Assembly (NCBI GenBank): GCA_963920765.1
Contig: OY987250.1
Span: 2,542,001-2,606,000 of the forward strand
DNA length: 64,000 nucleotides
Direction of reading: 5' to 3'
Origin: Ulota crispa
Taxonomy: Eukaryota; Streptophyta; Bryopsida; Orthotrichales; Orthotrichaceae
The position numbers were made by a program, and so were the translations under genes. Under the pieces are notes generated by a model. The model did no database searches and had not been told where the DNA came from. It worked only from the letters and a program-made list of their open reading frames with translations. How positions within the stretch are numbered: the first letter of the stretch is position 1; each line of letters starts with the position of its first letter. This document shows, in pieces, positions 1 through 60,826 of the stretch.

Positions 1-448
1 TAAATTTCACATAAATCCTCCAATTTTGCCTAGTGCATATGCAAATTTCATGGCCTTACGACACTACAAGATTTTACAAAGTATGAATCACACCTCCAAT
101 TCATTTGAAAATTCTCCCACACTTACCTAACTTGGTCATCTACATGAGAAAAAAAACCTCAGTTTTGCGTAGAGCAATTTTTTTTGATTTAGGAGCTGTC
201 AAAAGCTTTTGAAATTTTTGGGTAGTAGGGAATTTTTTTTTTTTTTTTCATTTTAGATGTCAATATCTCACTCATGTACACCTAAAATTAGTTGATTTGT
301 TTCCCGCAGGTACCTCCCATAGTCTAGGGCAAGATCTTACGGTTGGATTTCCAAAAAAACTTTTTTTCCTACCATTCTACTCATTCCCCCAAAAGTGGCA
401 ATTTTCAATGACTTTCACTAAAAAAGGACTTGAGCCTTTACGGGTTAA
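1..448 (+). mobile_element. piggyBac-like MITE, right-hand part (cut by window edge)
   Basis: The segment ends in CCTTTACGGGTTAA, a one-base variant of the CCTTTAGGGGTTAA terminus shared by many elements here. Its interior matches the right-hand halves of the elements at 49777-50709 and 59902-60826, for example the shared phrases TTTTGCCTAGTG, CTAACTTGGTC and CATTCCCCCAAAAGTGGCAA. The left half lies outside the window. No coding capacity was seen. The piggyBac assignment rests on the TTAA flank and CCC-type terminus seen in complete copies elsewhere in the window. Confidence 0.7.
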
Positions 449-1658
449 GGAATTAAACACCTTGAAACATTCTAGAACAAATTTTCTTAAAAAGTGAACT
501 AAATTAACTACTAAATTTATTTGGTTCATATTTATATCTTTAGAAGAAGTAGCTATGGACTTTTTAGTATATCTATGATGAATTGGCACTATTGAAGTTG
601 TAATAACATAAGGTTCACAAACTTTTTTTCACCTAAAATAGTCTACATTGAAAACTTCAATATGTACTTCTACATTATAAGGTGTTTTTAAAATCAATAT
701 CTATTTAGAACTATCTATAATCTATAAAACAAAATTTTAAGCATATTTTTCTATTTTTACAACAAAAAAATAGTAGCAATCCTTTTATTGCTTGGGTAAA
801 AAACAACCCTTTTCTAGACTACGTGGATAAAAAAGAAAAATGTTTTTTATTGCATGAGCAAAAAACAAAAAATGTTTTATTGCTTAGATAAAGATTTTTG
901 TTTGTTTGTAATTAGGCCTAAAATTGGGCTGCATGTGTAAAAGATGAAAAATATTTTATTGCATGAGAAACATTTAGCATGATGGACCTAAAATCATTTT
1001 GCATCCCGTCGGATCGACAAGTCATATCCTACTTCAACTATAATAAAACACATTTTGAGGTGCATTTGCATTTGGTGCCAAGAAAGATAGAAACAACAAA
1101 ATCAAACTACATTTTACATAATATTTGTGTTTTGATGTATTGACATGTTCTTTTGAAATAATTTTCACCTCGTAAACCCCGGGTGGTTCTTTTCTTTTCT
1201 TTTAACAATAAATGAAAGGGGGTGGATTTTTATTTCTTTACATTTAATGAGAATATATGGAAGGGCTACAAGCCTACAACCACTTACAGTTATTATGAAG
1301 ATATGCACGACACGACCCATTGAAACAAGATTGTAGCCAAAATTCCAAGTACTTTCAAATCTAAGGGGTACATCAAGAGCGTGCCACATGGCAATCAGCA
1401 ATTGCCCAAATCAAACGTAGGATTAAATGGGTATATATGCAGGAACAGTACACGAGGTGCTCAAGTGGGGAGTGAAAGTACCATGGCACTTGAGAGTAAT
1501 TGGTGCTTCACACCATGTCCCATGTCTCATTGAAATATGAGGACCTAATTGGTGTAAAGTCAAAAATTGGGATTTGGTACTTCATTTGACATTTCAAGTT
1601 TCACATCTTGGTTCATTGCATTTTGCTCACATGGTAGTATTTTTTGGAAGTTGTGTCG
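449..1658. other. AT-rich intergenic spacer
   Basis: No gene or RNA was recognised. The stretch is AT-rich with scattered poly-A and poly-T runs and loosely repeated phrases built on TTTTATTGC (about 780-960). Short open frames have no protein-like composition. Confidence 0.6.
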
Positions 1659-2380
1659 TTAACCCCTAAAGTATCGAGGGTCCTTTTGGGGGACAAATGG
1701 GATTTTGGGCATGACCTATGGTTAAACTACTTTGCAAGATTTTATGAAACTTTTATGGAAGGTGAGGAATTCAAAAATCTATGTAGGAATGTAATTTTTT
1801 CTTCATTCCGACATTTATTGAAGAAGTTAAAAATGAAAATCTAGAAAATGATGCTCCTCAGGCAACCAAAAACTTCTTTAAAAATTTCTTTTTTTTCAAA
1901 TAAAAATCTGAAATAGGTTCTTTAGACTTGTATAGATGTGGGGAGCTTTGAATCATTCAATTTTGATAAATGAGATGATAGTTATGAGACGTTCTAGTTT
2001 GCGGGTAACTGTGGTTTGAAGAGAAACCTTAGTTACCCACAAACTAAAACTTCTCAGAACTTTCATCTCATCTATCAAAATTGAATGATTCAAAGCTCCC
2101 CACATCTATACAAGTCTAAAGAACCTATTTCAGATTTTTATTTGAAAAAAAAGAAATTTTTAAAGAAGTTTTTGGTTGCCCGAGGAGCATCATTTTCCAG
2201 ATTTTCATTTTTAACTTCTTCAATAAATGTCAGAATGAAGAAAAAATTACATTCTCACGTAGATTTTTGAATTCCTAACCTTCCATAAAAGTTTTAGAAA
2301 ATCACGCAAAGTAGTTTAGCCATAGGTACATGCCTAAAATCCCATTTGTCCCTCAAAGGGATAATGGTCCTTGAGGGAAG
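1659..2380. mobile_element. Foldback element made of two inverted piggyBac-like MITE left halves
   Basis: The left end is TTAACCCCTAAAG at 1659. About 350 bp later the sequence turns round a short loop (about 2013-2032) and runs back as an inverted copy of itself. For example CTCCCCACATCTATACAAG on the right arm mirrors CTTGTATAGATGTGGGGAG on the left. The right end near 2380 is degraded (TCCTTGAGGGAAG in place of TCCTTTAGGGGTTAA). The arms match the left half of the roughly 930-bp family (49777-50709, 59902-60826). A transcript through it would fold into a long hairpin. No open frame is meaningful. Confidence 0.8.
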
Positions 2381-3088
2381 GTGGGACTTCAATAACGTTT
2401 AAGAAGAATCGGCGGCTAGTTCAAAGCTAGCTGATTGAACTAAGGAAAAAACATTTGCAATTTATAAACATCAGTTAAAAAATGGGTTAAAAATCTAAAA
2501 TATATATATTTGCAATATGAGATACAGAAAATAATTGGAATAGTTTCTTGATAAAAGGGTTCAATACAAGAACTGAAGGAAATCAACCAATCAAACTCAA
2601 ATATTTCCTAGACAGAGGACTTCACTCAAAGTTTGGATTGATCATTTTGTTAAACCCAACTTTCAACTCAAATCCTATCAATATTTTTGCATAAAATACT
2701 CATATTTTTTGTAGTTCTCCTTTTTGCCCATAATAATCCAATGAAGCTAGGATTTTGCGTTGAGGTGGGACCTGCACAAATGGGATGTGGAACACAATAT
2801 AAAATGCCCCTAAATTTGAGTTCTAGCCCAAGTGAGTAAGCATTTTATTGAAAATCCCCATCAATCAAAGGGTGGTTTGTACTATGTCCTAGGTATCAAG
2901 CCCCCACCTTCCCTTATAAATGCTACAATAACATTTTTTGGAAGTTTTGGTGTTAACAAAATGGAGCTTTGCTCAAGAGTGAAGTGCAACAAAATTGGAG
3001 ATTGAATCAGGAGCCAAATTCCAATTTTTTTGCTCAAAATATCAAATAAGCTTGGATTTAGTGTTGAGATGGAACTTGCAAAGTTGGG
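2381..3088. repeat. Intergenic spacer with a diverged local duplication
   Basis: The segments at about 2738-2803 and 3036-3088 are diverged copies of each other (GAAGCTAGGATTTTGCGTTGAGG against AATAAGCTTGGATTTAGTGTTGAG, and so on). The second copy is broken by the LINE and resumes on the LINE's other side at 9794. No gene was seen. Confidence 0.6.
3078..3088. repeat. LINE target-site duplication, copy 1
   Basis: GCAAAGTTGGG lies at the 3' side of the LINE. It matches GCAGAGTTGGG at 9794-9804 with one mismatch. Confidence 0.7.
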
Positions 3089-3148
3089 TTTAATGCCTTT
3101 TTTGGGCTTTGTGGGGTCACGTCCCTAGACCCGCCATTGGCGGTTTCA

Positions 3149-6100
3149 TTAAGTGAAATGCGTGAAAAAGGGGGGAGGGGAGTAGTGGTATACACCATTC
3201 CCTCTAGTACAAAAACAGGGTGACCATTCCCCATTGAACACTGACTCTAGTTCAGCTATCTTATCTTTATTCTTCACTGCTGCATGCATGGCTTTCCATA
3301 AGCCTGCCCCTGCGTGTAACGTGTTGATCCATGTGGAGCCCATAATCTGTTCACTAGTGAAGGCTTTTTGGGAGAAGCGCGCGCCACATCTGGCTGCCCA
3401 TATTTTCCACAAGATGCTCGTGCAAAGGAGATCCCAGGGCTAGAAGTGATAAACATACTTGTTTAGAGGACCCGTGCTGCTAACTTGAAACTGTCCTAGG
3501 AGTACAAGTTCAAAATTTGGTACCTCAGGTTTGTTGCATCTTCTGGCAAAATTGTTGAATCTTCTCCAGATTTTTGTTGCCATTGGGCATTCCCAAAAGA
3601 GGTGGTGTTTGGTCTCCATAGGGTGATTGCACATGGAGCTGTCTGTTGTTTATCAGCCAGTTGCATTCCTCAGCCTTTCCCCCATGGAGAGTCCTTTGTT
3701 AAGCATAAGCCATGTGAACATTGCTTCTTTCTTTGGTCTAGCTGCGTGCCAAATGAAGGAGTATAATGTTTTGGTGTTGTCTGGCAAATATTCATAGGCT
3801 CTCATCACTTGTGGGCATGGCGGAGGTTCTCTGGTGTCTTGCAGATGGCCACTGTAGCCTCTTTTGATTGAGTATTGGAAGAAAGGGGCTTTCTTGATTT
3901 TTCCAATTTCCCCCAAGACCATTCTGCTGGGTCCCAAGTTAGGTCTTTTATTGCATTGCCCAAGTACGCTTAGATTCTATTCCGGCCTTGTGGCTTCTCC
4001 GGCGGATTGCAAACTATGAAAAATTTGTGGAAGGGTTCCCACATCACCACCCTTGCTGGCTATAGATCAGCTGTGGGGAGCGGCTGCCTATAGATGTAAT
4101 TGGTTAGCAACTCTGAGTTGTTGAGTTTGCCAAATCTCGTGGCTATTTTTACTTTTGAGTCTGGATCATCAATGAAGTAGAGCAATCGTCCCTTTTGCAA
4201 AAAGCCCAATCCCCCTTCTTCCAAGACTTGTCTCGCCTTCTTGGCTCCCAAGGAATGTGGCTGATAACTTTGAGTTTGCATGCTGTTCCTCTTGCTCTGA
4301 TTGGACTGCGCGGTATGCCACCAGGTAGGATATCTCTGAGGGTTTTCTAGTCATCACTTTGTTTGCTGCAGAGGTCGGAGATTTTGCGTATCCTTGCTTT
4401 GGCCCATAGATGCAAGTCTGAGTCCTCTTCAAACCCTAATGGTGTGCCTGGAGCTTCCAAGATGAAGGGATTGCCAAAGAGCTGTTGCCCTAGGATTTGC
4501 TTTGAGGTAACTAGTTCCTCTCTTGCTAGGTGTTTCCTGATGTTTGTAAATGCTTTGAAGCATGTCGCTACCAGAGGTGAGAGCATTTTATCCTTGCGGA
4601 CCCCTTTTCCAAAGAAAAGCCAATAGGGTGAGTTATGCCATTTTGCGTTCCCTATGGGTCTAATGGCTTGGATTTCGGCTTTGATCAGCGCCTTTTTAGG
4701 TTCTTGACCTGGTGCAAGCACCCTGACAACCAGTTTAGATAATAGAGCTTGCATTTGAAGATGAGGATTGATGAGTTTGATTCCTCCCTCTATCAGGGGA
4801 AGAATGGCTATGTTCCACCTCACTTTTGTTGCCCCAGCCCCTTTTGATTTGCCTGACCATACAAATGATCTGATGAGTGCTCGTATGTGATTACTCATTT
4901 GCTTGTGCAAGCCACAACACGCCACGCTTTACCAACATGTGGCTAAGAGGATTTGGTTGCTAATTAGCACTCTTCCTGCCATCAAGAGTTGCTTGGCTGT
5001 CCATACTCTTAGTTTCTTTTGTAAGGATTTCATGAGGGGTTTAGTATTTGCACCTGCATTGAGATGGAATCTAATGAGTGGGCCAAGGTAGCGGACACTT
5101 TGTCCCTCTTTGACCCACTTGAGGCCAATCTGATCTCCCCAATCAAAGTTTTTAGGGTTTGTAGATGCCTAGATCGCATATGATTTGCCCCAGTTTACCC
5201 TCAAACCAAATGCAATGCAGTATGTCTCCAGCACTCTATACGTCTTCTCCAAATTTTCCTTGGTGCCTTGCAGATATAAGGCTGTGTCATCCGCATAGGA
5301 TGAGTCAATTATTGTCTTACCATTAAGGAGGGTGAATCCTTGTATCCCATGTTGTTCATTTGTGAGGAGATACGCTAGGGAGTCTAGCACTATTATGAAG
5401 AGGAAGGGTGCTAGAGGGCAGCCTTGGCGGACAGATCTGGAGAGATTGAAGGTTTCCCTAACTTTGCCGTTGACCACCACTGCCAATGATGCGTCTTTGT
5501 AGAGTGCTGTCACACTCCTAATGAATTTGGCTTGGAAGCCCTGAGCTTCGAGGACTTCTCCCATGAATTGCCAGTTGATCTAGTCAAAGGTTTTTTCAAA
5601 GTCCAAAAGTAAGAGGGTAAGGTCTTGTCCCGATTGTTCTGCCCACTACATGGATTCTTGCCCCATGAAAATGTTATCAATGATGTGTCTTCCTTGAATG
5701 AATCCAGTTTGGTTGGATCAAATCAGTTCTGGGAGTATTGCTTGGATTTGCTTGGCTAGGATCTTGGCCATGATATTGTAGTAGGATCCCAAGAGGGTGA
5801 TCGGATGGTAGTTTGTGATGAGGGTTGTGTCACCCCCCTTGGGGATGAGCACAATCAAGCCCCTGCTGAGCTCTGCCCCTAGTTCTCTTGTTTCAAAGGA
5901 TTCCTTAATGGTCTCAAATAGGTCCATTTCCACCTTGGCCGAGCAGGTTGAGAAGAATTCAAAGGGTATGCCATCTATACCTGAGGACCTTCCAAGGGCA
6001 ATTGCTTTGAGGGCCCGCTTGAATTCCATGTATGATAGTGGTTCTATCAAAAGAATGTAGTGTTTGCGGATTACTACTTGTGGAACGCACTGAATCACAG

Positions 6101-7446
6101 CTCTTCTAGCTGCCCTTATGGGGTCTGTTTCTATGTCGGCCGTGTAGAGTTCTCTGTAGAGCTCTGATACTGCTCTCAATTTCCCTGCTTGGTCATTCAG
6201 TAGTCTCTCTTCAACTAGGAGCTGGGTCAAGTTAGAGCTGGAGTGCCGGTCTCCTACAATTTTAAAAAACTCTCTATTATAGTGGTCACCTTTCCTGCTC
6301 CATTGTGTTGCAACGGAGTGATACCTCTTGTCAAGCAGGTCCACTGAGGTCTCATGGAGCTTGGTTCTAGCTTCATCAAGGGTGAGTTCTGCAAGGGTTT
6401 CGCCCAAGTTCTGATGAAGGTATGACTCTGATTCACTAATGCGTTTTATCAGATCCCTTTCTTTTTTGTATATGGTTGCTTTTTGCTCCTTGTGAACGCC
6501 TCGGGCCGTGTGTGGGACCCTTGTTTGAGCTGCGGCAACCCAGTTTGGCCAACACCGTTTGTCTCCATGCTGTGTCGAGTTTACTCTTCACCTCCTTGTC
6601 TTTGAGGATGGAGGTAGTCATGCTCTTGCGGAGGGTTTGGCCTCTCTTGCCCGAGAATAGAGTGAGGGAGATAGGGGAGGGGCCGGAGACCTTGGTATGC
6701 AGATGCGTATACAGTGTACCACCTTGGTCACATATCAGGTGAGATGCATATATTTTGTCGATCCTACTTGCTCTCTTATTCAAGCTTTGGCGGCTGTTTT
6801 CCTAGGTGAAGCGTTTGTCTGAGTCGTATTTGATATTGTCTTGCTGTGCTATGTCTAGGAGGCCATAATGGTTCAGTAGCTGCGTCCACCAGGTTTTTTC
6901 TCTCTGATTCTGGGTGTTGCAAGATCTGGATTGTACTAGCCAATCGGATGGGTCTTCAACCATGTTGAAGTCCCCAGCCAGCAAGTAAGCCTCTCCTAGT
7001 ATATCTGCCTCTACAATTTGTTCCCAGAGTTGCGCTCTATTGTTGGATGAGTAGGATGCGTACACATTAATGATGGTCAGAGTGAGACTCCCCTTCACCT
7101 TGATAGAAATGTATTGGGCCCTTCCTGGAACAATGATGGCTTCTTTCATCAATTGCTGTGCATGTTTTGGTGCCATTAGTATGGCCAAACCACCCCTCTA
7201 GCGCGTGTTGTTACCTTCTATGATGGTTGGGTTTTAGGCCTTGTGCCTACTCACAAAAGGAAAGCTTCTGGTGTTGAGCTTGCATCTGTCTTCATTGAGC
7301 CAGTGCTCTTGAAGCAAGATCACTTGAGGAGGGCGGAGCATTCTTTTGAACATCCGCCTAATATGTACTTGTTTTTGAGCTTTGTGACTGTTAGTACCTG
7401 AGCCATGGATGTTCATGGACGCAATATGTAGACCACACTCTATCAA
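3149..7446 (-). pseudogene. LINE ORF2: endonuclease / reverse transcriptase / zf-RVT, broken
   Basis: The start ATG is at 7446 and overlaps the end of ORF1 by 56 bp. The endonuclease/exonuclease/phosphatase domain begins with IASMNIHG and LLQEHWL (7446-7234) and continues with LLAGDFNMVEDP (about 6960) and SRIDKIYA (about 6760). The reverse transcriptase shows GRSSGIDGIPFEFF and GLIVLIPKGG (about 5990-5830), motif A LDFEKTFD (about 5610), RQGCPLAPFLF, and the catalytic motif SYADDTALY (about 5290). The C-terminal zf-RVT region has FTWLMLNKGLSMGERL and HHLFWECPMATKIW (about 3710-3570). The frame is broken by several stops, for example after FVSRHKA, inside TFD*INW and after KRFT, and by frameshifts near 5700 and 3640. 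It would normally carry out target-primed reverse transcription; this copy cannot. Confidence 0.93.
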
Positions 7447-10163: not shown

Positions 10164-10292
10164 CACTACAAGGAAACCATGGTGAAATCTACAAAAAATT
10201 GACAATTTTTTGACCTAATCTACAATATACTGTAGATTAGGTCACAATCTTTGTCAAATTTTTGTAGATTTGACCATGGTTTCCTTGTAGTG
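10164..10292. mobile_element. CACTA-type hairpin MITE, copy 1
   Basis: It begins CACTACAAGGAAACCATGGT and ends with the inverted complement ACCATGGTTTCCTTGTAGTG. The 129-bp element is almost wholly palindromic, with GACCTAATCTACA / TGTAGATTAGGTC at the centre. The flanking triplets are ATA and TTA, so the 3-bp duplication is imperfect. CACTACA termini are diagnostic of the CACTA (En/Spm) superfamily. Sister copies lie at 41627-41756 and 46239-46370. Confidence 0.85.
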
Positions 10293-12618: not shown

Positions 12619-12827
12619 GCTCTAAAACCGCTCACCTCCCCAAATGTACCCTGTTGGTACATGTCTTATTCATAGCCTTTCAACAATGTACATGGGATGA
12701 ACGTTTGAGAGGTGGGTGGTTTTAGAGCACCTACGCCCTTCCCACTTCAAAATTTCATAACTAATTCCACAAAGCTCCATAAAATATGAAAACACTTGGG
12801 ATAGATGCCAATTTCAAGAAAAATTTA
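12619..12827. repeat. Dispersed repeat with GCTCTAAAA hairpin head, copy 2, interrupted
   Basis: The head hairpin runs 12619-12728 (GCTCTAAAACCGCTCACCTC / GAGGTGGGTGGTTTTAGAGC). The tail follows and is cut at 12827 by the TA-flanked element that begins at 12828. Confidence 0.7.
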
Positions 12828-13238
12828 AGGTAAGTGCACCCATAAGCGTGGAAATAAGGGTTTTGGAGTAGGTAAAACAATTGCCTAACTTTGAAAAAAA
12901 TACTGAAAGTGAGGAAATGGAAACCAAAAATATTGGCATCAATTTCAAGGTTCCAACTGCAAGCACTTGTTCACAAAAATTTGTCCAAAACCATTGAAAT
13001 TTTAGGAACCATGCGTAAGAGATGCTAATCACAAGGCTTGTTAGTTCTTAAATAGTGAGATGGGTACTCAAAACCTCATGCTAGTCACCCACAACCATCA
13101 CTTCATCACCCATAACCATCACTCAGCCACCCATAACCATCACTCAGCCACCCATAACCATTTGTTTTTTTTATTAATTAGCTCTGCCACTGTTAGGTGA
13201 CGGGCATGGGAACACAATGCTTATGGATGCTGCTACCT
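12828..13238. mobile_element. TA-flanked TIR element, copy 1 (carries an empty TTAA site)
   Basis: The termini are AGGTAAGTGCACCCATAAGC and the inverted complement of AGGTAGCAGCATCCATAAGC, with TA on both sides. This fits a TA target duplication as in Tc1/mariner-like MITEs, but no transposase is present to confirm the superfamily. Inside are tandem 20-22 bp units of CACCCATAACCATCACTCAG (about 13088-13160). The TTAA at 13048-13051 is the unoccupied equivalent of the site holding the MITE at 43616-44544. Sister copies, in opposite orientation, are at 43489-44768 and 61847-62234. Confidence 0.75.
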
Positions 13239-22771: not shown

Positions 22772-23559
22772 TTAACCCCTGAGCGCCCCAGCACCTCATA
22801 TATTGCCTCCTACTATTTTCAATCCCTCTTTTGAGGGACTAAATCTAACTTTTTGGTCTTACTTTACATTACAATTATGAAGGCATTCAAGTTGTCCATG
22901 CCAATGGAGTAATGGCAAGGAAAGCCAAATGTTGTACAAGCGCTACAAGAGATTTGATTGCCAGGTGAAAACATCATATGGGGAGTAGTGGCACTGTACA
23001 GGGCATGCTGGCAAGTAGCGTTTTACAGGGTACAACCGGTCAATATCCCTTGCAAGCTTCCTTGAGTAAGCTTTGTGGTAGCGGGAAAGTTGTTAGCAAG
23101 GGTTCAAGCATTTTTTAAGACCCTTATTATGGCAACCGTCACCAACTATGCTGGTCATTGTTTTCCGTGCAATAGCTATTTGAAGTCCTAAAACTTGACA
23201 TAAAAAGTAGTGCAATCTTCAATAATTTACAAGTGTGTGCGTTCACATCTAATCTTGCTACTCACAAAATTTGAGATGAATCCAGGGCTTATAGAATTTT
23301 GTAAAAATCATCAAATAGCAACTACCTACCAAAAAATGAGATTTTGTCATCACATGTTGTTTGATCAAATGTTATAATCTCCCATCTCTCGCGCTGAATT
23401 TTTCCCAAAATTTGCAAACCATTCTCTAAGTAGGTACTCCACTACTTTTGATGGTCAATTTTTGTGGATCATCCGATTGACCAAGATACAATGCATCAAA
23501 ATGGTCGGTTTCCAAAAACCTTGATTTTTGTGAAAACGGCCTAAGCGCTCAGGGGTTAA
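22772..23559. mobile_element. piggyBac-like MITE, GAGCGC subfamily, complete copy
   Basis: The element is 788 bp, starts TTAACCCCTGAGCGCCCCAG and ends CTAAGCGCTCAGGGGTTAA, a 15-bp perfect inverted repeat including TTAA on both sides. Its interior aligns with 41481-42186 and with 45870-46535. Shared phrases include TTCACATCTAATCTTGCTA and CCAAAAAATGAGATTTTG. No transposase coding was seen. It serves as an unoccupied reference for the CACTA insertion at 41627-41756. Confidence 0.85.
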
Positions 23560-32938: not shown

Positions 32939-33025
<87 letters not shown>

Positions 33026-37321: not shown

Positions 37322-38247
37322 TTAATCCCCTAAATCCATGAGTGTCCCCTTGGGGGACAAATGAGATTTTGGGCAGGTACCTACAACCTCAATTTTTTTC
37401 ATGATTTTTTGAAATGTTTTTTGAAGATAGAAAAACACATTAGCTCTTGGGGACTATAATTTTTATTCCAATCTATGCCCAAGAGCAAAAGTTATGTCCA
37501 AATAAGCAAAAATTTATGGAGATCGGGTAGCAAAAATAAATAAATACTTGAATAAAAAAGTTTAAATTTTTTTCCTCATATTTTATAATTTTTTGTACAT
37601 TTGAAGCTTTGATACATTCCATTTGGACTAGTTATGGGAAAATTATGGACAATCTTGTTTTTTGGGCAATTCAAGCATCTTCTAGAAAAAATAACATATA
37701 AACTTCATTTTTGAATGCAAGTTTAACAGTCTTTCAAAAAAAATTGTTGGAGAGGGTGAAGTTTGCTTTCTAGAACATTCCCATCATTGGAATTATTTTA
37801 TTTCATTTCCATTGCAGGGTTATTAACAATTTAAGCTTTTGTTCAGTCTCATACCTTCTTCCGCCTGATGTTTTTTTCAAGAATGAAAATTAAGTATTTT
37901 TTGTTTTAATGTTTTTCTAAAGATTCCCAACTCAATTCTCCACCATAAAAAATAAACCTCAAAACTCTAAGGTGCAAAAATTTTAAGTTAAAAAAGTTCA
38001 AAGTCAAATAATCTAATCATGCAAGGTGCAAAAAAGTTTGTTTATTACACTTTGAATGCAAACATCTTGCAATATGGGGGGTCAAAGTTTTTGAATTTTT
38101 TTTCCACACTCTTATACTAATCTAGTACAAGATCCTATGGCTAGATATGAAAATATACCAATTTTCAAACTTTTTTACTCTTTGCAATAGAAATGATAGT
38201 TTTGAGTGTCTTTTGACAAAATAAAGGCCCCAAAGATTAAGGGTTAA
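37322..38247. mobile_element. piggyBac-like MITE, about 930-bp family, subtype a
   Basis: It begins TTAATCCCCTAAAT and ends AAGGGTTAA. The interior aligns along its length with the cleaner copy at 43616-44544 (GGACAAATGAGATTTTGGGCA, AGATAGAAAAACACATTAGC, TTTGGACTAGTTATG). Length is 926 bp. The termini are worn, so this copy is older. Confidence 0.75.
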
Positions 38248-40222: not shown

Positions 40223-40470
40223 TTAACCCCTGAGCACCCAGCACAAGTTCACTCAAATCCAAACCCTTTGGAACTCATTCCAATCAAACTATCACCTAAA
40301 AGAGATTCACAAAAATTGACCGTACCGATTGATAGTGAACATAGGTCAAGAGCTCTAAGGAAAAAGACACGTCCTTTCACCATACCATTGAAAAGATTAT
40401 AATGGTCAAACAAGAATTATTTTCAAAACTGAGAGGCCATATTTTGGCCCCTTGGGCGCTCCGGGGTTAA
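40223..40470. mobile_element. piggyBac-like MITE, GAGCGC subfamily, short deletion copy
   Basis: The 248-bp element starts TTAACCCCTGAGCACCCAGC and ends GGGCGCTCCGGGGTTAA, with TTAA on both sides. It keeps the ends of the 22772-23559 type but lacks most of the middle. Confidence 0.8.
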
Positions 40471-41480: not shown

Positions 41481-42186
41481 TTAACCCTTGAACGCCCCAG
41501 AGGACCAAAATGGTCTTCACATGATTTCACAAGCTTGTTTGAGGTATTGGATTTATTTTTTTGACCTTGCTATAAACTACAATTATCAAGATATTCAAGT
41601 GGTCCATCAATCCACGCAAGCGGAGTCACTACAAGAAAACATGGTCAAATCTACAAAAAAGTTGACAAAAATTGTGACCTAATCTATAGTGTATTGTAGA
41701 TTAGGTCACAACTTTTGTCAACTTTATGTAGATTCAACCATGGTTTCCTTGTAGTGAGTAATAGCAAGGCAAGCCAAATGTTACACAAGTGCCTCAAGAG
41801 TTGTAATTGGGTGAAACACCATACGGAACATGGTGGCAAGCATTTTCTTACAAGCTACAACAAGTCAATACTCATTGTAAGTTTCTTTGCATGCCCTTTA
41901 AGGGTAGGAAATTTACCAGCAAGGGTTCAAGCATGTTCTAAGCCCTTGTTGGGGCAACCCTCACTAATTATGTCAATCATTGTTTTTTGCACAATAACAG
42001 TTTGAAGCCCCAAAACTTAACATCCAAAGATATAAAGTTTTCAATAATTTGCAAGTGTGTGCATTCACATCTAATCTTGCTATTCAAAAAGTTTGAGGTG
42101 AATTAGGGGCTTATAAATTTTTGTAAAAACCAATCAATAGCAACCACCTGCCAAAAAATGAGATTTTGCCATCACATCTATTTATA
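41481..42186. mobile_element. piggyBac-like MITE, GAGCGC subfamily, right-truncated and carrying a CACTA MITE
   Basis: It begins TTAACCCTTGAACGCCCCAG. The interior follows 22772-23559 until about 42180, where the next element starts, so its right end is missing. A 130-bp CACTA MITE is inserted at 41627. Confidence 0.75.
41627..41756. mobile_element. CACTA-type hairpin MITE, copy 2, with AGT target duplication
   Basis: It starts CACTACAAGAAAACATGGTC and ends GACTCAACC-type palindrome wording closing in CCATGGTTTCCTTGTAGTG. AGT flanks it at 41624-41626 and 41757-41759. The host sequence is uninterrupted at the same point in the sister element near 22904-22915, where a single AGT is present. 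Confidence 0.9.
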
Positions 42187-43106
42187 TTAACCCCTAAATG
42201 CCCAAGGGTGTTTTTCTTGTTTTCAGAAGGTAGTTTTGAAGATTTTGATTTGTCCTTGTAAGATCATTATCAAACATCAAAACAAAATTGTAACCGTTGA
42301 ATCTTGAAATTCAAGACTTCTAGATGGTGCTATCCAAAAAGAATCCAAAATGGCCATGCGGATTTTAAGATATTTGCAATTGAATGATGATGAGAATAGA
42401 ATTTTTTGCTTTTTTTGGAGCTGCCCAAAACTTCTAATGCAAATTGGCAACTTCTAGATACAAAATTGGAAAACAACCACTTAAATTGCTTTAGTGTTTA
42501 TTGTTGTTACTTCAAAATCAATAGCCCCCCTTCCAAATCCATGACCACCATTTCACAAATGAGCTTGCAACGCAAATGTCAAAACGCAACCATCTAATAC
42601 AAAGAATTTTTCAGCTCCAATTATTGACCAAAAATCATTATGAATGAAAGAATTTTCAACGGTGAAAGGATTCTAATTTTTATAACAAAGACATTCCAAG
42701 TGAAATTAGTCCAACAGCACTTTTAGATTCTGTTAGATGTCAAAATTTCAATAAAAAGGCCCTTATTGCCCAAAGGAGTGCCCAAGGGAAATCTTCACCT
42801 TTTGCTCAACTTGATGCCTGCCTTTTCAATGTGGCAACTTCTCATAGGCTTTGTGACACTATTCACAACACTATTCACGGCACTATTCATGATAGAAAAT
42901 GTATGCTTGTAGTTAACCTTCCACCAAAAACAATTGGAATAAGATATGGAGGAAGTTGAATTTGAACACTGGAGCTAACTTGAGCGCGCAATTTTCCCAA
43001 TAAAAAGAACCTAAAAATGATAAAATTTGTACCTTCAACAGAGTTTCAAAGTTTCTTGAAGTTTTTTGGACACCCAAATTGGATGCCTTGGGCATTCAAG
43101 GGTTAA
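42187..43106. mobile_element. piggyBac-like MITE, AATGCCCAAGG subfamily
   Basis: The 920-bp element starts TTAACCCCTAAATGCCCAAG and ends CTTGGGCATTCAAGGGTTAA. TTAA is at 42187-42190 and 43103-43106. The inverted repeat runs about 22 bp with two mismatches. The second TTAA is also the left end of the next element. Confidence 0.85.
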
Positions 43107-43312
43107 TCCCTAAAAGACCATTGTCCCCTGGGGGATAAATGGGATTTTGGGCATGTACCTATAGCTAAACTATTTTGTGTGATTTTCTAAAACTTTTATA
43201 GAAGGTGGAGAATTCTTAGGCCTACACGGGCATCTAATTATTACTTCATTTTGACATTTAATGAAAACGTTATATAAGAATTCATGAAAATTAGGGGAAG
43301 AGGTGCAACCCG
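43103..43312. mobile_element. piggyBac-like MITE, about 930-bp family subtype b, left part only
   Basis: It starts TTAATCCCTAAAAGACCATT at the TTAA shared with the preceding element. The interior (GGGATTTTGGGCATGTACCT, ATAGCTAAACTATTTTG) matches 49777-50709. Similarity stops near 43312, where GC-richer DNA begins. Confidence 0.7.
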
Positions 43313-43488
43313 AGTAGGAGCTCCTCTAAGTCCTCTTTGTAAGTGAGAGTTGGCTGAAGAGTTGGGCAGCTTACAAGGGTAAGGGTAGCAAATCTTGTGG
43401 GCAGATGGAGGAGTGGGTTTTAGAACTTGCGGATGGGGAGCGGCACGGGGACTCGGAGAATGCTATTGGCAAGAGGCGAGAGAAGCTA

Positions 43489-44768
43489 AGGTAGCCACAC
43501 CCATGGGCGTCACTAATAAAGTCAGGGTGGTTATGGGTACTTAAGTGATAGTTATGGGTGACAAAGTGATGGTTATGGGTGACTCCATGACGGTTTTGAA
43601 TACCCATCTCACTATTTAACCCCTAAAGGACCATTGTCCCTTCAGGGGACAAATGGGATTTCGGGCAAGTACCTAAGGCCTCAATTTTTGTCCTAATTTT
43701 TTGAAACTTTTTTTGAAGATAGAAAAACACATTAGCTTTTGGGGAATATAATTTTTATTCCAATTGATGCCAGGGAGCAAAAGTTATGCCCAAATAAGCA
43801 CAAATTTGGGGACTAGGGGCAGCAAAAAAAATTCTTATAAAAACTTGCAAAAAAAAATTAATTTTTTTTTCTCATAGATTATATCTTTATCTACTTTTGG
43901 AGCTTTGATTCATTCCATTTGGACTAGTTATGAGAAAGTTATGAACAATCTTGTTTTTTGGGCAACTCAAGCATCTTCTTGAAAAAATAACTTATCAACT
44001 TCACTTTTGAATGTAGATTTAACATTTTTTCAGAAAAAATTGTTGGAGAGGGTGAAGTTTGCTTTCTAAAACAATCTCACCATTGGGATTATTGCGTTTC
44101 AATTTCATTGCAGGGTTATTAGCAATTTAAGTTTTTCTTCAACCTCATACCTTCCTTTACCTAATGTTTTTTAAAGAATGAAAATTAAGTATTCTTTTAT
44201 GAAATTTTTTTCCAAGATTCCCAACTCAACTTCCCACCATGCAAAAATAGAATTCCAAACTCTCTGGTGCAAAAATTTTAAGTTAAAAATGTTCAAAGTT
44301 AAAAAATCTAGTCAAGCAAGGTGCAAAAAAAGTTGTTTTTTACTTTTTAAATGCAAATATCTTCCAATTTGTGCGGTCAAAGTTCTTCAGTTTTGTATGA
44401 CACATTCTTATAATAGTCTAGCACAAGATCCTATGGTCAAATATGCAAAATGCCTGATTTTCAAACTCTTTTATTCTTTGCCATAGAGGTGGCAATTTTG
44501 AGTGTCTTTTGACAAAATACAAGCCATGGTCCTTTAGGGGTTAAGAACCATCAAGCCTTGTCTTTAACATCTCTTATACATGGTTCGTACAATTTTAATG
44601 ATTTTGGACTTCGAAAAATCTTTGTGAACAAGTGCTTGTAGTTGGAACCTTGAAATTGATGCCAATATTTTTGATTTCCATTTCCTAACTTACAGTATTT
44701 TCCAAAATTAGTCAATTATTTTACCTACTCCAAAACCCTTATTTCTACGCTTATGGGTGCGCCTACCT
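43489..44768. mobile_element. TA-flanked TIR element, copy 2, containing a piggyBac-like MITE
   Basis: It begins AGGTAGCCACACCCATGGGC and ends GCTTATGGGTGCGCCTACCT, with TA at 43487-43488 and 44769-44770. Once the 929-bp MITE at 43616-44544 is discounted, about 350 bp remain, similar in size to copies 12828-13238 and 61847-62234. Confidence 0.8.
43616..44544. mobile_element. piggyBac-like MITE, about 930-bp family subtype a, best-preserved copy
   Basis: It starts TTAACCCCTAAAGGACCATT and ends ATGGTCCTTTAGGGGTTAA, a 19-bp perfect inverted repeat including TTAA. The flanks GAATACCCATCTCACTAT and GAACCATCAAGCCTTGT join across one TTAA in the sister copy at 13048-13051 (inverse orientation). This shows TTAA-specific insertion with duplication of the four bases. 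No transposase frame was seen, so it is non-autonomous. Confidence 0.93.
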
Positions 44769-45129
44769 TACTGCAGACCGAAGCGAGAGGGGCGGAGCGC
44801 AGGGACCTCGATTGGGTGGGAACATTGCTTGGGAACGCCGGTGGGGACAAGGCAGTTCGGGTGGGAGCTTTTGGGGGAGGGGGTAGCAGCTTCCACCGGC
44901 TAAAAAGTCAAGAGCGGTGGGCCCTGTTACAGCCCACCTACATGGGGTGCAATGGGGCCATGGGGGTGCAATGCGCCCAATTTATGGGATCCAAAAGCTT
45001 CAATTGCACCTGCCCAAAATAAGAATCTCAATTTTAATTATTTTGATTGGGTATTATATGTTTTTTTTCTGTTTTTTTTTTGCAAAAAGTAAAACATTAA
45101 TCAATCTAGGTTATCACCATTTTTATTTG

Positions 45130-45593
45130 CATTAATCAAATTTATGAATTTTCATAAAGCTTTCAAGTTTGCCTAGTGTATTTGCACATTTCATGACCTT
45201 CTGGCATTGCAAGATTTTATATAGTATGTTGGATACCTCCAATTGATTTAAAAATTTCCCCACACACATCTAACTTGATCTTTTACATGGATAAAATAAA
45301 CCTCAATTTTGCATAGAGCAATTTTTTTTGATATAACAATGGTCAAAGGCTTCTGAAAATTTATGGCAGCAAGGAAAGAACTTTCTTTTGTCACTTTAGA
45401 TGTCAAAATCTCACTCCTCTACATCTGAAATGATCTAGAGATTTTCCCACAAGTACCTCTAGTAGTTTAGGGCAAGATCCTATGGTTAAAGTTTCAAAAA
45501 AAGGTTTTTATCCTACCTATCTACTCATTCCCCCAAAAGTGGCAATTTTCAATGATTTTCACATAAAAAAGGGCTTGGCCCTTTAGGGGTTAA
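45130..45593. mobile_element. piggyBac-like MITE, subtype b, right part only
   Basis: It matches the right halves of 49777-50709 and 1-448 (TTTGCCTAGTGTATTTGCA, CTCATTCCCCCAAAAGTGG) and ends GGCCCTTTAGGGGTTAA at 45593. Confidence 0.75.
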
Positions 45594-48311: not shown

Positions 48312-48390
48312 TTAACCCCTAAATGCCTAAGGCACTGATTTCTAGTGTAAAATCCATCAGAATTTGGTGCCGCAAGCATTTAGGGGTTAA
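48312..48390. mobile_element. Miniature 79-bp piggyBac-like element upstream of the SINA-like start codon
   Basis: It starts TTAACCCCTAAATGCCTAAG and ends GCAAGCATTTAGGGGTTAA, a perfect 15-bp inverted repeat with TTAA on both sides. It is 59 bp upstream of the assumed ATG, so it probably lies in the 5' leader or core promoter. It has little beyond its two termini. Confidence 0.85.
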
Positions 48391-49776: not shown

Positions 49777-50709
49777 TTAACCCTTAAAGGCCCAAATGTC
49801 CTCTCAAATGGGATTCTGGGCATGTACTTACAACTAAACTACATTGTGTAATTTTTTGAAACTTTTACGGAAGATGGAGAATTCAAACATGTATGTGAGC
49901 ATCTAGTTTTTTCTTTATTCCAATATTTATTGAAGAAATTATGCACAAATTTCTTCAAAAACTTTTTTTTTTTTAAATTATTAAGTTTTAAATAAAACTT
50001 TGAAATCGGTTCTTTAGACTTACACATATATGGGATGCTTTTAATCATTCAATTTTTATTGATGAGATGAAAGTTATGAGAAATTTTAGTTTGCGGGTGG
50101 GTACGGGACTCCCACACCTCCATTCCTTTTTTTGCCCCTTGTAAAATTTGGTGCTTTACTTTTTTGAGCTCTTTGTGTATTTTTTTTTTGACTCTCTTTT
50201 TTTCAAGTTGTAGTAGACTAAAATTCCTTGGTTTTACCATTTGGATCAAAGTAACTTAGATTTATGAATTTCACATAAAATCTCCAATTTTGCCTAGTGT
50301 ATATGCAAATTTCATGGCCTTACAACATTGCAAGATTTTACAAAGTATGATTCACACCTCCAATTCATTTGAAAATTCTCCCACACATACCTAACTTGGT
50401 CTTCTACATGGAAAAAATAAACCTCAACTTTGCGTAGAGCAATTTTTTTGATATAGGAGTGGTCAAAGGCTTCTAAAACTTTTGGGCAACAAGTAAAAAA
50501 ACTTTTCTTTTTTCACTTTAGAGGTCAATATCTCACTCCTCTACATCTAGAATGAGCTGATTTTTTTCCCTCTCACATAGTCTAGGGCAAGATCTTCTAG
50601 TTGGATTTCCAAAAAAAACTTTTTTTCCTACCTTTCTACTCATTCCCCCTAAAGTGGCAATTTTTAATGACTTTCACAGAAAAAAGGACTTGGACCTTTA
50701 GGGGGTAAT
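49777..50709. mobile_element. piggyBac-like MITE, about 930-bp family subtype b, complete
   Basis: It begins TTAACCCTTAAAGGCCCAAA and ends TGGACCTTTAGGGGGTAA, one base off the expected TTAA. It is 933 bp and co-linear with 59902-60826. It is the reference for the fragments at 1-448, 1659-2380, 43103-43312 and 45130-45593. Confidence 0.8.
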
Positions 50710-50953: not shown

Positions 50954-51905
50954 TTAACCCCTAAAAGACCAAGGAGCCCACTTTGGGCTTTATGAGAACT
51001 CAGGCAGGCTCTATTGACTTCATAATTTGGAAATTATTCATGAAATTTTTAAGATGGATGCTACTCATCATAATCTACATGGGAAGCTTTATTTCATATC
51101 ATTCCAATAAGTAATGCAAAAGTTATAAGGTTTTTTCAATTTTAATGTCAAACCAGGCAGCAAAAAATATATTCTTTTTTTATTTTTTATTTTTTTATAG
51201 AATTTTATAGATTGACACCTACTCAAAAAAAAAGAAAAAAAAAGAAAAAAAAAGAAAAAAAAAGAAAAAAAAAGAAAAAAAAACCACTCAATTTCAAATA
51301 ATGAGGTAAGAGTTAAAAGGAGTTTTATTTTGCAGGCAATGAAGGTAGGAAGAGGGTAGAAAAAACATATAAAGTTATCTTTTACTCTCAATTTTGAAAA
51401 TTTTCAAATGAAAATGAAAGTTACTAATTGTTTGTTATAGCATTCTCACCATTGGGATTAACAATTTTCAAATTCTTCCAAAACTTATTAGCATATTAGT
51501 TGTATCTTTCATTCATCAATACCTTTCACTTTACTATTTTTGTAAAAATGAATCCAAAAAAAAATTTGGTTCAATTTTTTTATATATGCTTTCAACCCAT
51601 TTTCCAACATATTGCAAAAATTGGACAAGAAATACAACATACGTGTTTTTTTCTAAAAAGTTTGAAAAACAAAACTTCACCTTCTAGAAGGACTAGAAAA
51701 GCCTACATTTTGAAGTTTAGGCACAGCAATTGGTGGGGATATTAGTTCTGAAATTTTGGAACAATATACTTGTGCAAGTCAACCAAAGGATCCTACGGTT
51801 GGATTTGTTAAAAAGTAAGTTTCAATAAAGCTTTTGACCATGGTTTGGAACTACTATTTTGAAGCAATATTGGGCCTCTAAACATGAAAGAATTTTAGGG
51901 GTTAA
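50954..51905. mobile_element. piggyBac-like MITE, AAAAGACC subfamily
   Basis: It starts TTAACCCCTAAAAGACCAAG and ends GAAAGAATTTTAGGGGTTAA, with a 14-bp terminal inverted repeat and TTAA at both ends (952 bp). Only the terminal bases resemble the other subfamilies. It contains a poly-A/G tandem repeat at 51225-51283. Confidence 0.75.
51225..51283. repeat. Tandem repeat of nine A and one G, about six units
   Basis: An exact 10-bp period runs for 59 bp within the MITE at 50954-51905. Confidence 0.95.
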
Positions 51906-51966: not shown

Positions 51967-52250
51967 TTAACCCCCAAAGGATGTTGCCTACCAAAAGTGT
52001 TTGTTGTATTCATACAAGGACCGTTTTGAGTGTTTGTTATATTCATACAAGGACCATTTAGTAATTTAAGAAATAGCTTCATGATAAATGCCGAAATTCC
52101 CCAAAAAATCCTACTCGACCGGTAGCATGTTTATGATTTGGCTTGAAATTTGCAACTCCAATGAGATTCATATGCTACCCAAATACCCCATCCATATACA
52201 ACACAACACAGGAGAGCGTATACAATATATCAACATCCTTTAGGGGTTAA
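51967..52250. mobile_element. piggyBac-like MITE, AAAGGATGTTG subfamily
   Basis: It starts TTAACCCCCAAAGGATGTTG and ends CAACATCCTTTAGGGGTTAA, a 20-bp inverted repeat with one mismatch, in a 284-bp element with TTAA on both sides. It is only 61 bp from the previous element. Confidence 0.88.
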
Positions 52251-52757: not shown

Positions 52758-55700
52758 CTAGGAGGCGACATAAGGAGCTCGAGCAGCCATACTATCGACC
52801 TGAGAAGACACTTGTATTTGTCTAATCATTTGCGAAGTAGCACGATGAAAGAACTGCTCCCGGGAGAGGACTCTTACGTGCTTCAAGTAGGCTTCCACAG
52901 GAATCACCAAATCTTGAGCTCCTTTATCTATGGCGTAAAGAATATCTTCAATAGCCAGATCAGAAGCCTGGCATTCCAGCAGCTGCTTCGAAAGGGTATC
53001 CACTGGCTCAAATACATCGTCGATGTTCACCTGAGCGACACCCTTGTCATTCGCCTTGAGCCATTTCTCCAATATCTCCGTGTTTGTCAAGGTGGCTTGC
53101 AGCTGGTTCTCAAGCGCCCCTTTCTCTTCCACCAGTTCACGTACTCCATTCTTAAGCTGATCCGATCTTTGAGCCAACAGAGCCTGCAAGGCAAAACAAC
53201 AGAAATGGTAAGGTAAAGGATGGTAAAACCGTGAGGGGTTGATACTGTCTCCTATACTAACCCTTGTTATCAACAGCAACTCATCTATTCTCACACACTC
53301 AGTGGAACACACTAACAAGCAATATAAGCATGACTTGGCTGAATATTTACAGCCATTGATCTGTGAAAGAAAAAAAACTTGAAGAAGTCAAACACCTCCC
53401 ACGTTGAAATTGCATAAGATATTCCCAAATGGTGGTGAGAAATTTCAAACTCGAGAAATTTGTTTCTTATACCCAAATATCCCTCCACAGTTCTACACAT
53501 CTCTCAAGAATCAAACTCAAACACACTCCCTCTATCCCTCTAAAATCGTCCAAATCAAACACATTTCTAAAAGGCTCTTACAAATTACGGAGCATTCCTC
53601 TCCTAACAAGATTGGCCTTGCCCATATGAGGTACCATTGTTGCTACTGATCTTTAAAACATCAATAGTGAGGAGCTAAGAACATGCACAAATATGGTACT
53701 TTTTGCATGGAATTTGGGTGCCCAAACGGTAACATCAAAGCTGGAGATTCAGATAGATGGTATATTGATTCTAGAATGCATGTGTCACTAGCACAAAGAC
53801 TAAAAACACAATTAATCCTTTGCAAGGAAGCTTTTTGGACGTTTTTAGAGGGACAGAGGGAGTATGAAAAATGCCAAAACTGATGGAAATAGTTACCGTC
53901 AATTATTATTGAAGAGCATTTCAATGAAACGTTCAAAAGCAAGCATAAAATAACGTGAATACACAGTTGCAACATCTAGAAAATGAGACAGGTACGAAAG
54001 CAGGCAGTCAAACAGAATAAGAGTAAGTATCCAGCAACGACATAGACACTGACCTGTGTATTGAAAATCGATTCCATTTCATTCTTCCGGTCCTGAACCA
54101 TTTTTTTGATATCGTTTTTCAGCCGATCTGTCAAGGTAGAGACAAGATTCCGCTTATACTGTTCTTGAGGGTCATCACTCCGGCTGTGAGGAGGAGGGGG
54201 AGGCGAATGCTGATATGGAGGATAAGGAAGTGCAAGCCGTGGAGACTGAGAAGGAGTAGTAGGCCCTGGAGAAGAGGAGGAAGGATTGGTTTGAATATTT
54301 CCACCAGTATGAATGGGATTCATGAATGGAGGCGGGTGAGCTGAAGGTGGTGGAGGTGGAGGTCGAACATTAACAGGCGCGGCAGGTCTGGAATACAACG
54401 GTGGGTCCTGTCCGAAGAGAAGAGAGAGACTCTGAACCAACTCAACTAAATTTGATCTAGGATACACCCAGTGTTGAATATATATAGAGGTTACCATGCC
54501 GGATCCATCTACGTAAGGATGACGGGGCTTGATTATCATGTCCCGCGTTGGCGTCACAAACACTAGTGGAGGTTGGCGAGGGTACGTTTCCATGAGCCAC
54601 ATCGTAATAGGAATGTTGTACTTAACGTCTTGGTAATACATCGGAATCGTGCCTCCAGCTTGCAATAGGTTGCATGTCCGTCCATCATTGTGCGAGAACA
54701 CAGCAGTCTTGACCTACACCACAGATATCCAAAACAATACAAAACCTAAATTCAGGTCTATGAAGGAGGAGGGAAAAAAGTTCAAGTCGCAGTTCAGAAA
54801 CAAAGGATTCATGAAATTAGGTTTGTTTGAATGATAGAATTCAGATACACAAAGGACAGATTTTGTACCACCATAAATCATAATCAGTGAACATTAACGC
54901 ATGTGATGGTAAATACATAATAAAAATAAAAAACAGATCTCTTTGTTACACCTACTTTAATGCAATCTTCCAAAAATCTTTCTCAATAAATACTTATGGT
55001 TTTGAGAACGTACACCACTTCAACGTCAAAACCTTTGTTCCTACTGGATCAACTACTACTAAAACTTTGTAACCTGGTTTCCAAATAATGCTATCTTTAT
55101 TGCGTTGGAATCCTCTCCAACACGAGAATCTTAAATATCTGACCGTTCGATAATCTAAATCGTGCTGAGTGCTTAGTGATAATGTTAAAATTGAGTCACC
55201 ATATAGGCTCTAAAAGCGCTCAGGCTCTAAAACCGTCCACCTTCTCACATGTACTCAAATTGTACATGTTGTTTTTCATAGTCTTCAACAATGTACAGGC
55301 AAGTGTACATTTGAGGAGCTGGGCAATTTTAGAGCCCTATACCACTTCAACTTCAGAATTTCATAACTAATTCCACGAAGCTCCAAAACATACGAAACAA
55401 CTTGGATTAGATGCCAATTCCCCTTATCTTTCAAGGAAAATTTACTGAAAATTACTTCAACAAGACTCACCTCCCCGAAATTCAGTTTCAGCTCTTAGAT
55501 CGTCCTTAGATGGTCGGTTTACGATAACTTAAATCATGATGAACACTTAAGGTACCGCGATTACGAGTGATCATCTTATAAATCAAGTCACTACATACCC
55601 TAGGCCAAAACTAAAATCCAGTTCGGATCTCAGGCAATAAAAGAGATCACGACTTCCAAAGCGCACCGGCGAAGAATAAATCAAGCAACAGAGCAACAAA

Positions 55701-57893: not shown

Positions 57894-58191
57894 CAAATCA
57901 AATTAGGTAAGCTCTCACTAGAAAGATTTTGGAATACAAGAAGAAGGTTGAATCTGGTTTTGAAATATGAGTTTGAAACAAGCATCTTCTGGGAATAGTT
58001 TGACTATCTAAGCCTCATGTACCTAGGTGGCAAATTCCATTTTTGATGCTTACAATAAGAGACAGACCTTGCAAAGAACCAACATAGTATTTTCTCCAAG
58101 AAATTCTTGAGTTAGATCATTGACCCTACCACAAATGGATGTACTATTGTAGTAAACATGTGATAACCTATGAGTTTGAGTTTATGACCAC
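57894..58191. other. Intergenic spacer
   Basis: Nothing recognised. Confidence 0.4.
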
Positions 58192-58424
58192 TTAACCCTT
58201 AAAAGACCATAGGGCATAGCATATACGCTGTCGTATGATCGATATTTGCTATCAGTAAGAATTTTTAATTTGGGATCTCAAGTAGCTCACTAGAACGCTC
58301 TGATCTATTTTCCAACTTCTTTGTTGATCTCAAATGTAATATAGGTGTGAATCTATTCTAAATACAAGAAAAATACCTCGTATTCTACTGGTCGCAGAGG
58401 CACACAGTGTCCTTTAAGGGTTAA
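58192..58424. mobile_element. piggyBac-like MITE, 233 bp
   Basis: It starts TTAACCCTTAAAAGACCATA and ends GTGTCCTTTAAGGGTTAA, with TTAA at 58192-58195 and 58421-58424. The inverted repeat is about 16 bp with one mismatch. The interior matches no other copy in the window. Confidence 0.8.
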
Positions 58425-59295: not shown

Positions 59296-59724
59296 TAAAA
59301 TTTAGGGAATTGATTTGTGTACCATACCCTCTGAACTATTGTACCACACTCCGGGGTAATTTTTAGATTTCTAACACCAAAAAACTGAATTTGAGAATTT
59401 GGAATTTAGATTTGGACATAGAGACTATGATTTAGTTTAGAACCATAAAAAGGGTTGCAATTCAACAACACCCATTGAAAAAATTAGCTTTTTATATAAA
59501 TAAAAGTAAAAGTAACACTTTTCTCCCTAGCTAAGCTTTTCACTGGATGTTGTTGAATTGCAACTTTTTTTATGCTTCTAGACTAAATTATAGTCTCTAA
59601 GTCCAAGTCTAAATTCTAAGTTCTCAAATTCCGCTTTTTGATGGTAGAAATCTAAAATTTACTCTAGGATTGTGGTATAGTAGTTCAAAGGGTGCGGTAC
59701 ACATATCAATTCCCTAAAATTTAT
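59296..59724. repeat. Foldback element with arms of about 175 bp
   Basis: TAAAATTTAGGGAATTGATT at the left mirrors AATCAATTCCCTAAAATTTA-type wording at the right (ATATCAATTCCCTAAAATTTATA). The arms continue through TTGCAATTCAACAACA and TGTTGTTGAATTGCAA around a loop near 59475-59545. It has no coding content. Confidence 0.8.
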
Positions 59725-59901
59725 AGTGAAGATTAACAATTTTTGCAATAAACTTTTTGGCTATTTTTGCAATAAAATTTTTAGTGATTTATGTAATAAA
59801 TTTTTTAATACTTCTTGTATAATGATAAATTTTGCTTGTAGTCATTTTTAAATATACTTTGTCATTAAAAAATAATTAAGCTGCTTCTAAAGAATCATCA
59901 T

Positions 59902-60826
59902 TTAATTCCTAAAGGCCCAGCTATCCCCTGGGGACAATTGAGATTTTGGGCATGTACCTATAGCTAATTTAGTTTTTCTTATTTTTTTAACTTTTATTGA
60001 AGGTGGGGAATTCCAAGACCTACCTAGGAATCTAATTTTTTTGTCATTCTGACAATTGACAAAGAAGATATGCAAGGATTTCTGGTGCTCAGGGGAGGGG
60101 GCAATCCGGGCAGCCCAAAACTTCTTTAAAAATTTATTTTCTAAAAATAGAAATCTGAAATTGGTTCTTTCAAACTTTTTATATGCGAGAAGCTTTGAAT
60201 CATTCAACTTCAATTGATGAGATGAAAGTTATTAATTTGTGGGCAGTTATGGATTCTCTACTCTAAAATAAACTTTGAAGTCTTTTATTTTCCACAATTT
60301 TTAATATTTTGGAAAAAAAACTAAACCCAAGGAAGTAGATTGTTTATCACAACATTACAACAACTGGGATTTTCATTTTTTCATTTTAATAATTAAAGTC
60401 TTAACAATTTAGTGATTTGAGTCATTCTCTACTTCTTTTTACTTACTATTTTCCCCCACGTGTTGAATAGTTCCAATTGATTTGAAAATTCTCTCACACA
60501 TACCTAACTTGGTTTGCTACATGGAAAAAATAAACCTCAACTTTGTGTAGAGTAACTTTTTTCATGTAAGTGTGGATAAAGGCTTCTGAATTTTTTTGGA
60601 CAGCACAAAAAGAAACCTTTTTTTCACTTTAGATGTAAATATCTCCCTCCTCTCCATTTAGAATGACCTGATTTTTTCCCACAAGTACCTCTTCCAATCT
60701 AAGGCAAGATCTTATGGTTGGATTTGCAAAACCAACTTTATTTCCTACTTTTCTACTCATTCCTCGCAAAGTGATAGTTAACAGTGACTTTCATTGGAGA
60801 AAATTGCAAATGCCTTTAGGGGTTAA
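59902..60826. mobile_element. piggyBac-like MITE, about 930-bp family subtype b, complete
   Basis: It begins TTAATTCCTAAAGGCCCAGC and ends ATGCCTTTAGGGGTTAA (925 bp). The interior is co-linear with 49777-50709, including TTGAGATTTTGGGCATGTAC and CCACAAGTACCTCT. TTAA is present at both ends. Confidence 0.82.

Follow-up and report, generated by a model that had tools for sequence, protein, structure and literature searches.

The question raised by the stretch of the Ulota crispa genome analysed here, a window of 64,000 nucleotides (C9:2542001-2606000, in an assembly of 275 Mb and 157 contigs), is which transposase moved the short, TTAA-bounded elements that recur along it. An initial annotation, made from the letters of the window, had read them as about 18 miniature inverted-repeat transposable elements (MITEs) and as a large piggyBac-like load in a plant genome. 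Our analysis leads to the same superfamily, of which insects supply the best-known examples: with a probability of roughly 0.94, the MITEs are non-autonomous piggyBac-superfamily elements mobilized in trans by the DDD transposase of 5-6 kb elements in the same genome.

The tips TTAACCCC and GGGGTTAA occur nine and eight times in the window, about six times the expectation from 30 order-1 Markov simulations (means 1.5 and 1.4). All ten starts originally listed as complete copies carry a TTAA and a C-rich tip paired with an inverted tip and a second TTAA. These tips had been described as shared or differing by one base, which holds for most of them, including the left tips of 37322 (TTAATCCCC) and 58192 (TTAACCCT), but not for 59902, where two changes are present (TTAATTCC); AAGGGTTAA is the right-hand tip of 37322, 42187 and 58192. 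Short terminal inverted repeats (TIRs) beginning CCC are the rule, a minority of copies having changed tips as at 59902. When C-rich tips next to a TTAA were paired mechanically, with no more than 3 mismatches allowed in 12 positions, 11 pairs resulted: eight of the listed elements, two cross-pairs of neighbours and one chance-like pair (2650-3093). Fifty Markov shuffles gave a mean of 0.16 pairs and a maximum of 2, and the reversed window gave one. The two listed elements missed by the filter, 37322 and 59902, escaped it because of their altered tips. When the C-rich condition was dropped, 22 pairs were found against 7.75 expected, so most pairs that are not C-rich are background.

Adding an eleventh unit, 49777-50708, and five pieces gives 16 intervals that cover 9,833 bp, or 15.4% of the window, which is of the order of the 12 kb first estimated, if somewhat lower. 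Further weak tips, near 34043-34393, 38778 and 57893 among others, lie outside these intervals, and a total of about 18 MITEs is plausible. The intervals, none of which is assigned a strand, are as follows.

1..448: TTAA element represented by its right end, truncated by the window start (self-comparison)
1659..2378: foldback-like piece (long inverted repeat) with one left tip, TTAACCCCTAAA; right TTAA not found
22772..23559: complete TTAA MITE, 788 bp, tip CCCCTGAGCGCC (end pairing, genome-wide copy boundaries)
37322..38247: complete TTAA MITE, 926 bp, of the 43616 family, 83% identical to 43616-44525 (self-comparison)
40223..40470: complete TTAA MITE, 248 bp, tip CCCCTGAGCACC (tip pairing)
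41481..42186: TTAA element represented by its left end, tip CCCTTGAACGCC; 41756-42177 aligns to an internal part of 22772-23559
42187..43106: complete TTAA MITE, 920 bp, tip CCCCTAAATGCC (tip pairing; transposase-element homology at 42187-42778)
43103..43298: left end of a TTAA element, having one TTAA in common with 42187-43106
43616..44544: complete TTAA MITE, 929 bp, tip CCCCTAAAGGAC, inside another repeat; three empty paralogues
45043..45593: right-end fragment that may be the second half of the element starting at 43103
48312..48390: complete TTAA MITE, 79 bp, hairpin-like
49777..50708: TTAA MITE, 932 bp, with TTAC instead of TTAA at its right end
50954..51905: complete TTAA MITE, 952 bp (tip pairing)
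51967..52250: complete TTAA MITE, 284 bp, with a 33-bp tandem duplication inside
58192..58424: complete TTAA MITE, 233 bp (tip pairing)
59902..60826: complete TTAA MITE, 925 bp, left tip TTAATTCC

These units have the traits of MITEs, being short (79-952 bp), TIR-bounded and present in many copies (between 271 and 5,153 first-look candidates for each family searched). The original proposal of at least six subfamilies is borne out by at least six groups in self-comparison, though their likeness is not confined to the tips, since some share about 110 bp beside the left one.

The target is seen most directly at 43616-44544. Its joined flanks with a single TTAA lie unoccupied at locus L023 (93% identity over 164 columns, no gap), and two more empty paralogues occur at L031 and at 12983-13123 of the window (87% each); a fourth copy of the flanks (68%) is gapped at the site and uninformative. 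The repeat family hosting this insertion is found at 12823-13139, 43487-44772 and 61921-62236 of the window and also in L023 and L031. Clear empty sites were obtained for this one of the 11 units tried; a poor, gapped match for 49777-50708 in L035 (77% over 91 columns) was not counted. The boundaries of copies elsewhere in the genome were followed for five MITE families, with 40 candidates scored for each, the window copy included, leaving 39 others; the query 42187-43106 was searched without flanks and the remaining four with them. For 43616-44544 (5,153 first-look candidates), all 39 copies have 92-96% identity, and neither end lies more than 10 bp from its TTAA. For 22772-23559 (2,111 candidates), the right end falls within 8 bp of TTAA in 39 of 39 and the left start within 21 bp in 37, the other two starting further inside. 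Every one of the 39 copies of 42187-43106 (2,237 candidates) spans query positions 1-15 to 914-920 of 920 at 89-93% identity, and all 39 of the 79-bp element (271 candidates) end at most 16 bp outside and 1 bp inside its TTAAs. The 51967-52250 family (1,287 candidates) has its right end within 7 bp of TTAA in 39 of 39 and an internal start, at query 102-114; another 26 rows align the left end as a second block, which is consistent with the 33-bp duplication inside the window copy.

Genome-wide tip counts, each controlled by the reversed pattern, point the same way. The degenerate tip TTAACCCYTNANNGNCC occurs 31,318 times (0.114 per kb) against 9 for its control, a surprising load for a plant; TTAACCCCTAAANGCC occurs 7,643 times against 1, and the exact tip CCCCTAAANGCC 9,297 times against 44. 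TTAA precedes 7,643 of these 9,297 exact tips (82%), which, with the three single-TTAA empty paralogues, identifies TTAA as the duplicated target. Flanks other than TTAA, which the annotation had named as grounds for abandoning its view, are thus not the rule, and the five families likewise end at or near TTAAs. The window itself holds ten TTAACCCYTNANNGNCC tips (0.156 per kb), only moderately above the genome average. In a non-random sample, the outermost 1.5 and 1.8 kb of 20 stretches around transposase loci, there were 16 tips in 66 kb, a density of 0.24 per kb, and none with the reversed pattern. Scaling the 15.4% of the window by tip density suggests that roughly 30 Mb, or about 11%, of the genome consists of TTAA MITEs, as extrapolated from this one window.

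The proposed check of the piggyBac assignment, a DDD-type transposase within the same ends, also came out in its favour. A genome search with PF13843 (528 candidates, 116 scored) gave at least 120 rows, a few genes contributing two each, with a best E of 1.3e-73. Stops interrupt 110 of the 120 rows, so most of these transposase genes, about a hundred in all, are dead. An uninterrupted open reading frame (ORF) of 476 residues at L031 matched only piggyBac (6x67, E 4e-20) and piggyBat (9c0f, E 6e-17) in the PDB at E up to 10. The catalytic triad of piggyBac is given in the relevant passage of PMC2533014 as D268, D346 and D447; among 20 copies, the equivalent positions are occupied by D in 17, 14 and 17, and 11 copies have the full DDD. 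Where D is absent, nine residues are N and one is E, and two cells are gaps; in L031 the third position is N. At loci L001-L015 and L031-L035, the stops are mostly TGA or TAG, and N takes the place of D in nine of ten catalytic replacements, a pattern that C-to-T decay in methylated copies would give.

Elements around these transposases were looked for in 20 fetched stretches, each 10 kb long. Those at L016 and L025 are 90.5% identical over 5,029 columns (5.03 kb), and the homology stops at TTAA within one base. The element at L019 (1967-7712) has TIRs identical at 14 of 14 positions, beginning TTAACCCCTAAATGCC, while the TIRs at L016, L021 and L020 have 2, 2 and 3 mismatches. Element assignment relies on the L016/L025 homology ending at TTAA together with L019, L029 and L033; tip pairing was rejected as proof in itself, as the 11 of 20 loci that paired (at most 3 mismatches of 14) included some pairs of unrelated MITEs or of sites that are not C-rich. 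Elements that encode a PF13843 transposase have ends of the type seen on the MITEs, these ends having been placed for about half of the 20 loci. One window MITE is tied to such elements well beyond its tip: 42187-42778 aligns with 590 bp at the end of L019 and L033 (84% identity) and of L029 (78%), and hence MITE 42187-43106 retains one end of a transposase-bearing element.

The annotation had envisaged a single transposase family. The transposases are indeed piggyBac, but a tree of 20 transposase domains, midpoint-rooted for drawing only, shows that several diverged clades coexist. Tip variants appear to follow the clades, with tip classes assigned by eye. Clade L019/L029/L033 has tip CCCCTAAATGCC, similar to the window tips at 42187 and 48312; clade L020/L031/L035 has tips with GACC or GATC, resembling 43616, 50954 and 58192; clade L017/L027/L032 has AAGCRCC and GAGCGCC, resembling 22772 and 40223; clade L021/L028 has SACCGCC, resembling 41481; and clade L016/L025 has TCATYGCC. 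This pairing is just suggestive, because 11 loci have one assigned end (L029, L031, L032 and L033) or none (L018, L022, L024, L026, L027, L028 and L030).

As a mechanism, 5-6 kb elements residing beside the MITEs in the nuclear genome would supply a piggyBac DDD transposase in trans; this enzyme would recognize the C-rich tips of a MITE, and would cut it out and insert it at a TTAA, duplicating the latter. These transposases probably moved these MITEs, each clade may mainly serve its own tip class, and excision would presumably be precise, by analogy with known piggyBac. The likeness to piggyBac of Trichoplusia ni and to piggyBat lies in the TTAA target, the short C-rich TIRs and the PF13843 transposase with its DDD motif. 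The differences are the land-plant host, the element length of 5-6 kb, an upstream domain in one group and the very large number of MITEs; the T. ni element is roughly 2.5 kb long.

Several observations weigh against this account. TTAA is missing before 18% of exact tips. Element ends could not be placed at about half of the 20 loci, and some tip pairs there unite unrelated MITEs. A link beyond the tip to a transposase-bearing element was obtained for one window MITE only, and its other end could not be traced to a source. With 110 of 120 transposase rows interrupted, the remaining copies are candidate transposases predicted from sequence. PF13843 had zero matches in 14 control genomes, of which the single one named is a cyanobacterium, so that this result has little bearing on eukaryotes. 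Finally, a first-pass search found no MITE end within 1.5 kb of 15 transposase matches; in the 10-kb stretches the ends sit 2-3 kb away, which makes that first pass misleading.

One might then regard the piggyBac elements as bystanders, the MITEs having been moved by another TTAA transposase such as Sola3, whose target is also TTAA. Most window MITEs do resemble the transposase-bearing elements at the tips only, and for the families with the most copies, none of the 20 fetched loci contains a full-length partner. Yet the tip variants of the transposase elements resemble MITE tips class by class, and one MITE has 590 bp in common with such elements; we consider this explanation very improbable. 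A second alternative starts from the target. Tourist (PIF/Harbinger) and Stowaway (mariner) MITEs of plants are likewise short, TIR-bounded and present in many copies, and differ in target (TTA/TAA and TA, respectively) and in transposase. If a conserved base adjoined a TTA or TA target, a filled TTAA...TTAA beside an empty TTAA would also agree with a duplication of 2-3 bp in which an A or T is assigned to the element, and these are the usual MITEs of plants (also in a passage of PMC10004981). However, a 3-bp duplication would leave the ends asymmetric, symmetry requiring TTAA, and the transposase genes inside elements with such ends are of piggyBac type (the searches did not extend to Harbinger or mariner transposases), so there is very little to be said for this origin. 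Kolobok MITEs, from a different superfamily that also duplicates TTAA, have 5'-RR and YY-3' termini according to the relevant section of PMC9587614, whereas the window MITEs start 5'-CC and the transposase found between such ends is piggyBac (no search was made for Kolobok transposases), which makes them a most unlikely source.

Within the piggyBac elements, one transposase group carries additional sequence upstream. A conserved segment of an upstream ORF at L021:2486-3010, with the motif NWxYLCRRQIAKLLGW, recurs at 37-44% identity in eight of the 19 other stretches. Its nine carriers are eight rows of one well-supported tree group plus L026; it was undetected in L022 and L034, members of L026's wider group. 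Genome-wide there are 89 matches, many with stops. A same-strand position 1.3-4.3 kb upstream of a transposase row, out of at least 117 such rows, was found for 36 of the 89, the query's own site among them, and for 30 of the 50 best; as controls, placement on the opposite strand gave 0 and placement downstream 1. The other 53 may or may not adjoin unscored transposases. The segment has no Pfam match at 0.1, its predicted structure is helical but weak (mean predicted local distance difference test score 67, predicted template modelling score 0.59), and no PDB match is convincing (best fold match and best profile match, E 0.8 each). It could be either a first exon or a second protein. Treating the six longest upstream ORFs as one protein was abandoned, as they gave no joint alignment and no Pfam match at 0.1; segments are common only to L019/L033, to L020/L031 and to the L021 group. 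The codon-position pattern of L016 versus L025 gave no clear coding signal. A wider picture is tentatively offered, at somewhat less than an even chance: a long, multi-lineage piggyBac radiation, in which MITEs, mobilized by several coexisting transposase clades with tip classes of their own, came to about a tenth of the genome (by extrapolation), and one group gained an upstream helical domain or protein, lacking Pfam or PDB matches, for transposition or host interaction.

The host was first described as a plant; 56 chlorophyll a/b-binding matches support this, as does an Lhcb of land-plant type, whose closest single-domain PDB chains are 8htu and 7xqp, two multi-domain 9vfj chains being higher in summed score. 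The chains 8htu and 7xqp are from the moss Physcomitrium patens, and the host is accordingly placed among the land plants, perhaps the mosses. Eight of the 11 strongest chlorophyll a/b-binding matches cluster at G000:C4:21391382-21771811, which suggests repeated Lhcb copies. The accompanying remark that piggyBac is seldom reported from plants needs correction. A 2022 review of land-plant transposons names six TIR superfamilies (mariner, hAT, Sola, MULE, PIF-Harbinger and CACTA), piggyBac being unmentioned in the section concerned (PMC9033089). In the pertinent passages of other papers, piggyBac is included among angiosperm MITE superfamilies (PMC10004981) and among plant superfamilies (PMC10794571), is stated to have been isolated from plants (PMC10813416), and is entered in a fern genome table with 1,230 copies and 122 kb (PMC6890710); its presence in plants is thus already published. 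None of the matches listed from the open-access literature reports abundant piggyBac in bryophytes or lycophytes, which is no proof of absence; a paper on the moss Niphotrichum was set aside, the matched word being "piggybacking". What is notable here is the load, the elements bearing a DDD transposase and the several clades, not the presence of piggyBac in plants. Tens of thousands of piggyBac tips with transposase elements in a plant would amend the six-superfamily picture, and would provide native plant ends and transposases for comparison with the insect piggyBac system, whose application in rice is described in part of PMC10905368. They would also permit one to ask how multiple transposase lineages and their MITEs coexist within one genome.

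The window holds other features besides the TTAA units. The foldback at 1659-2378 has a TTAACCCC tip and a close copy at L016 538-1264. A repeat of about 130 bp, not recognized as a TTAA unit, lies at 10164-10292, 41627-41756 and 46244-46370 and at L017 9608-9737, its copies matching in both orientations. A row of ORFs at 4347-8818 on the minus strand resembles a long interspersed nuclear element, with a zinc-knuckle-like part at 8366-8818; three ORFs of this run have no Pfam match at 0.001. A UEV-domain gene fragment lies at 53976-54713 on the minus strand, and an FtsH-like gene at 31252-35963 on the plus strand has its AAA, AAA lid and peptidase M41 domains each in an ORF of its own.

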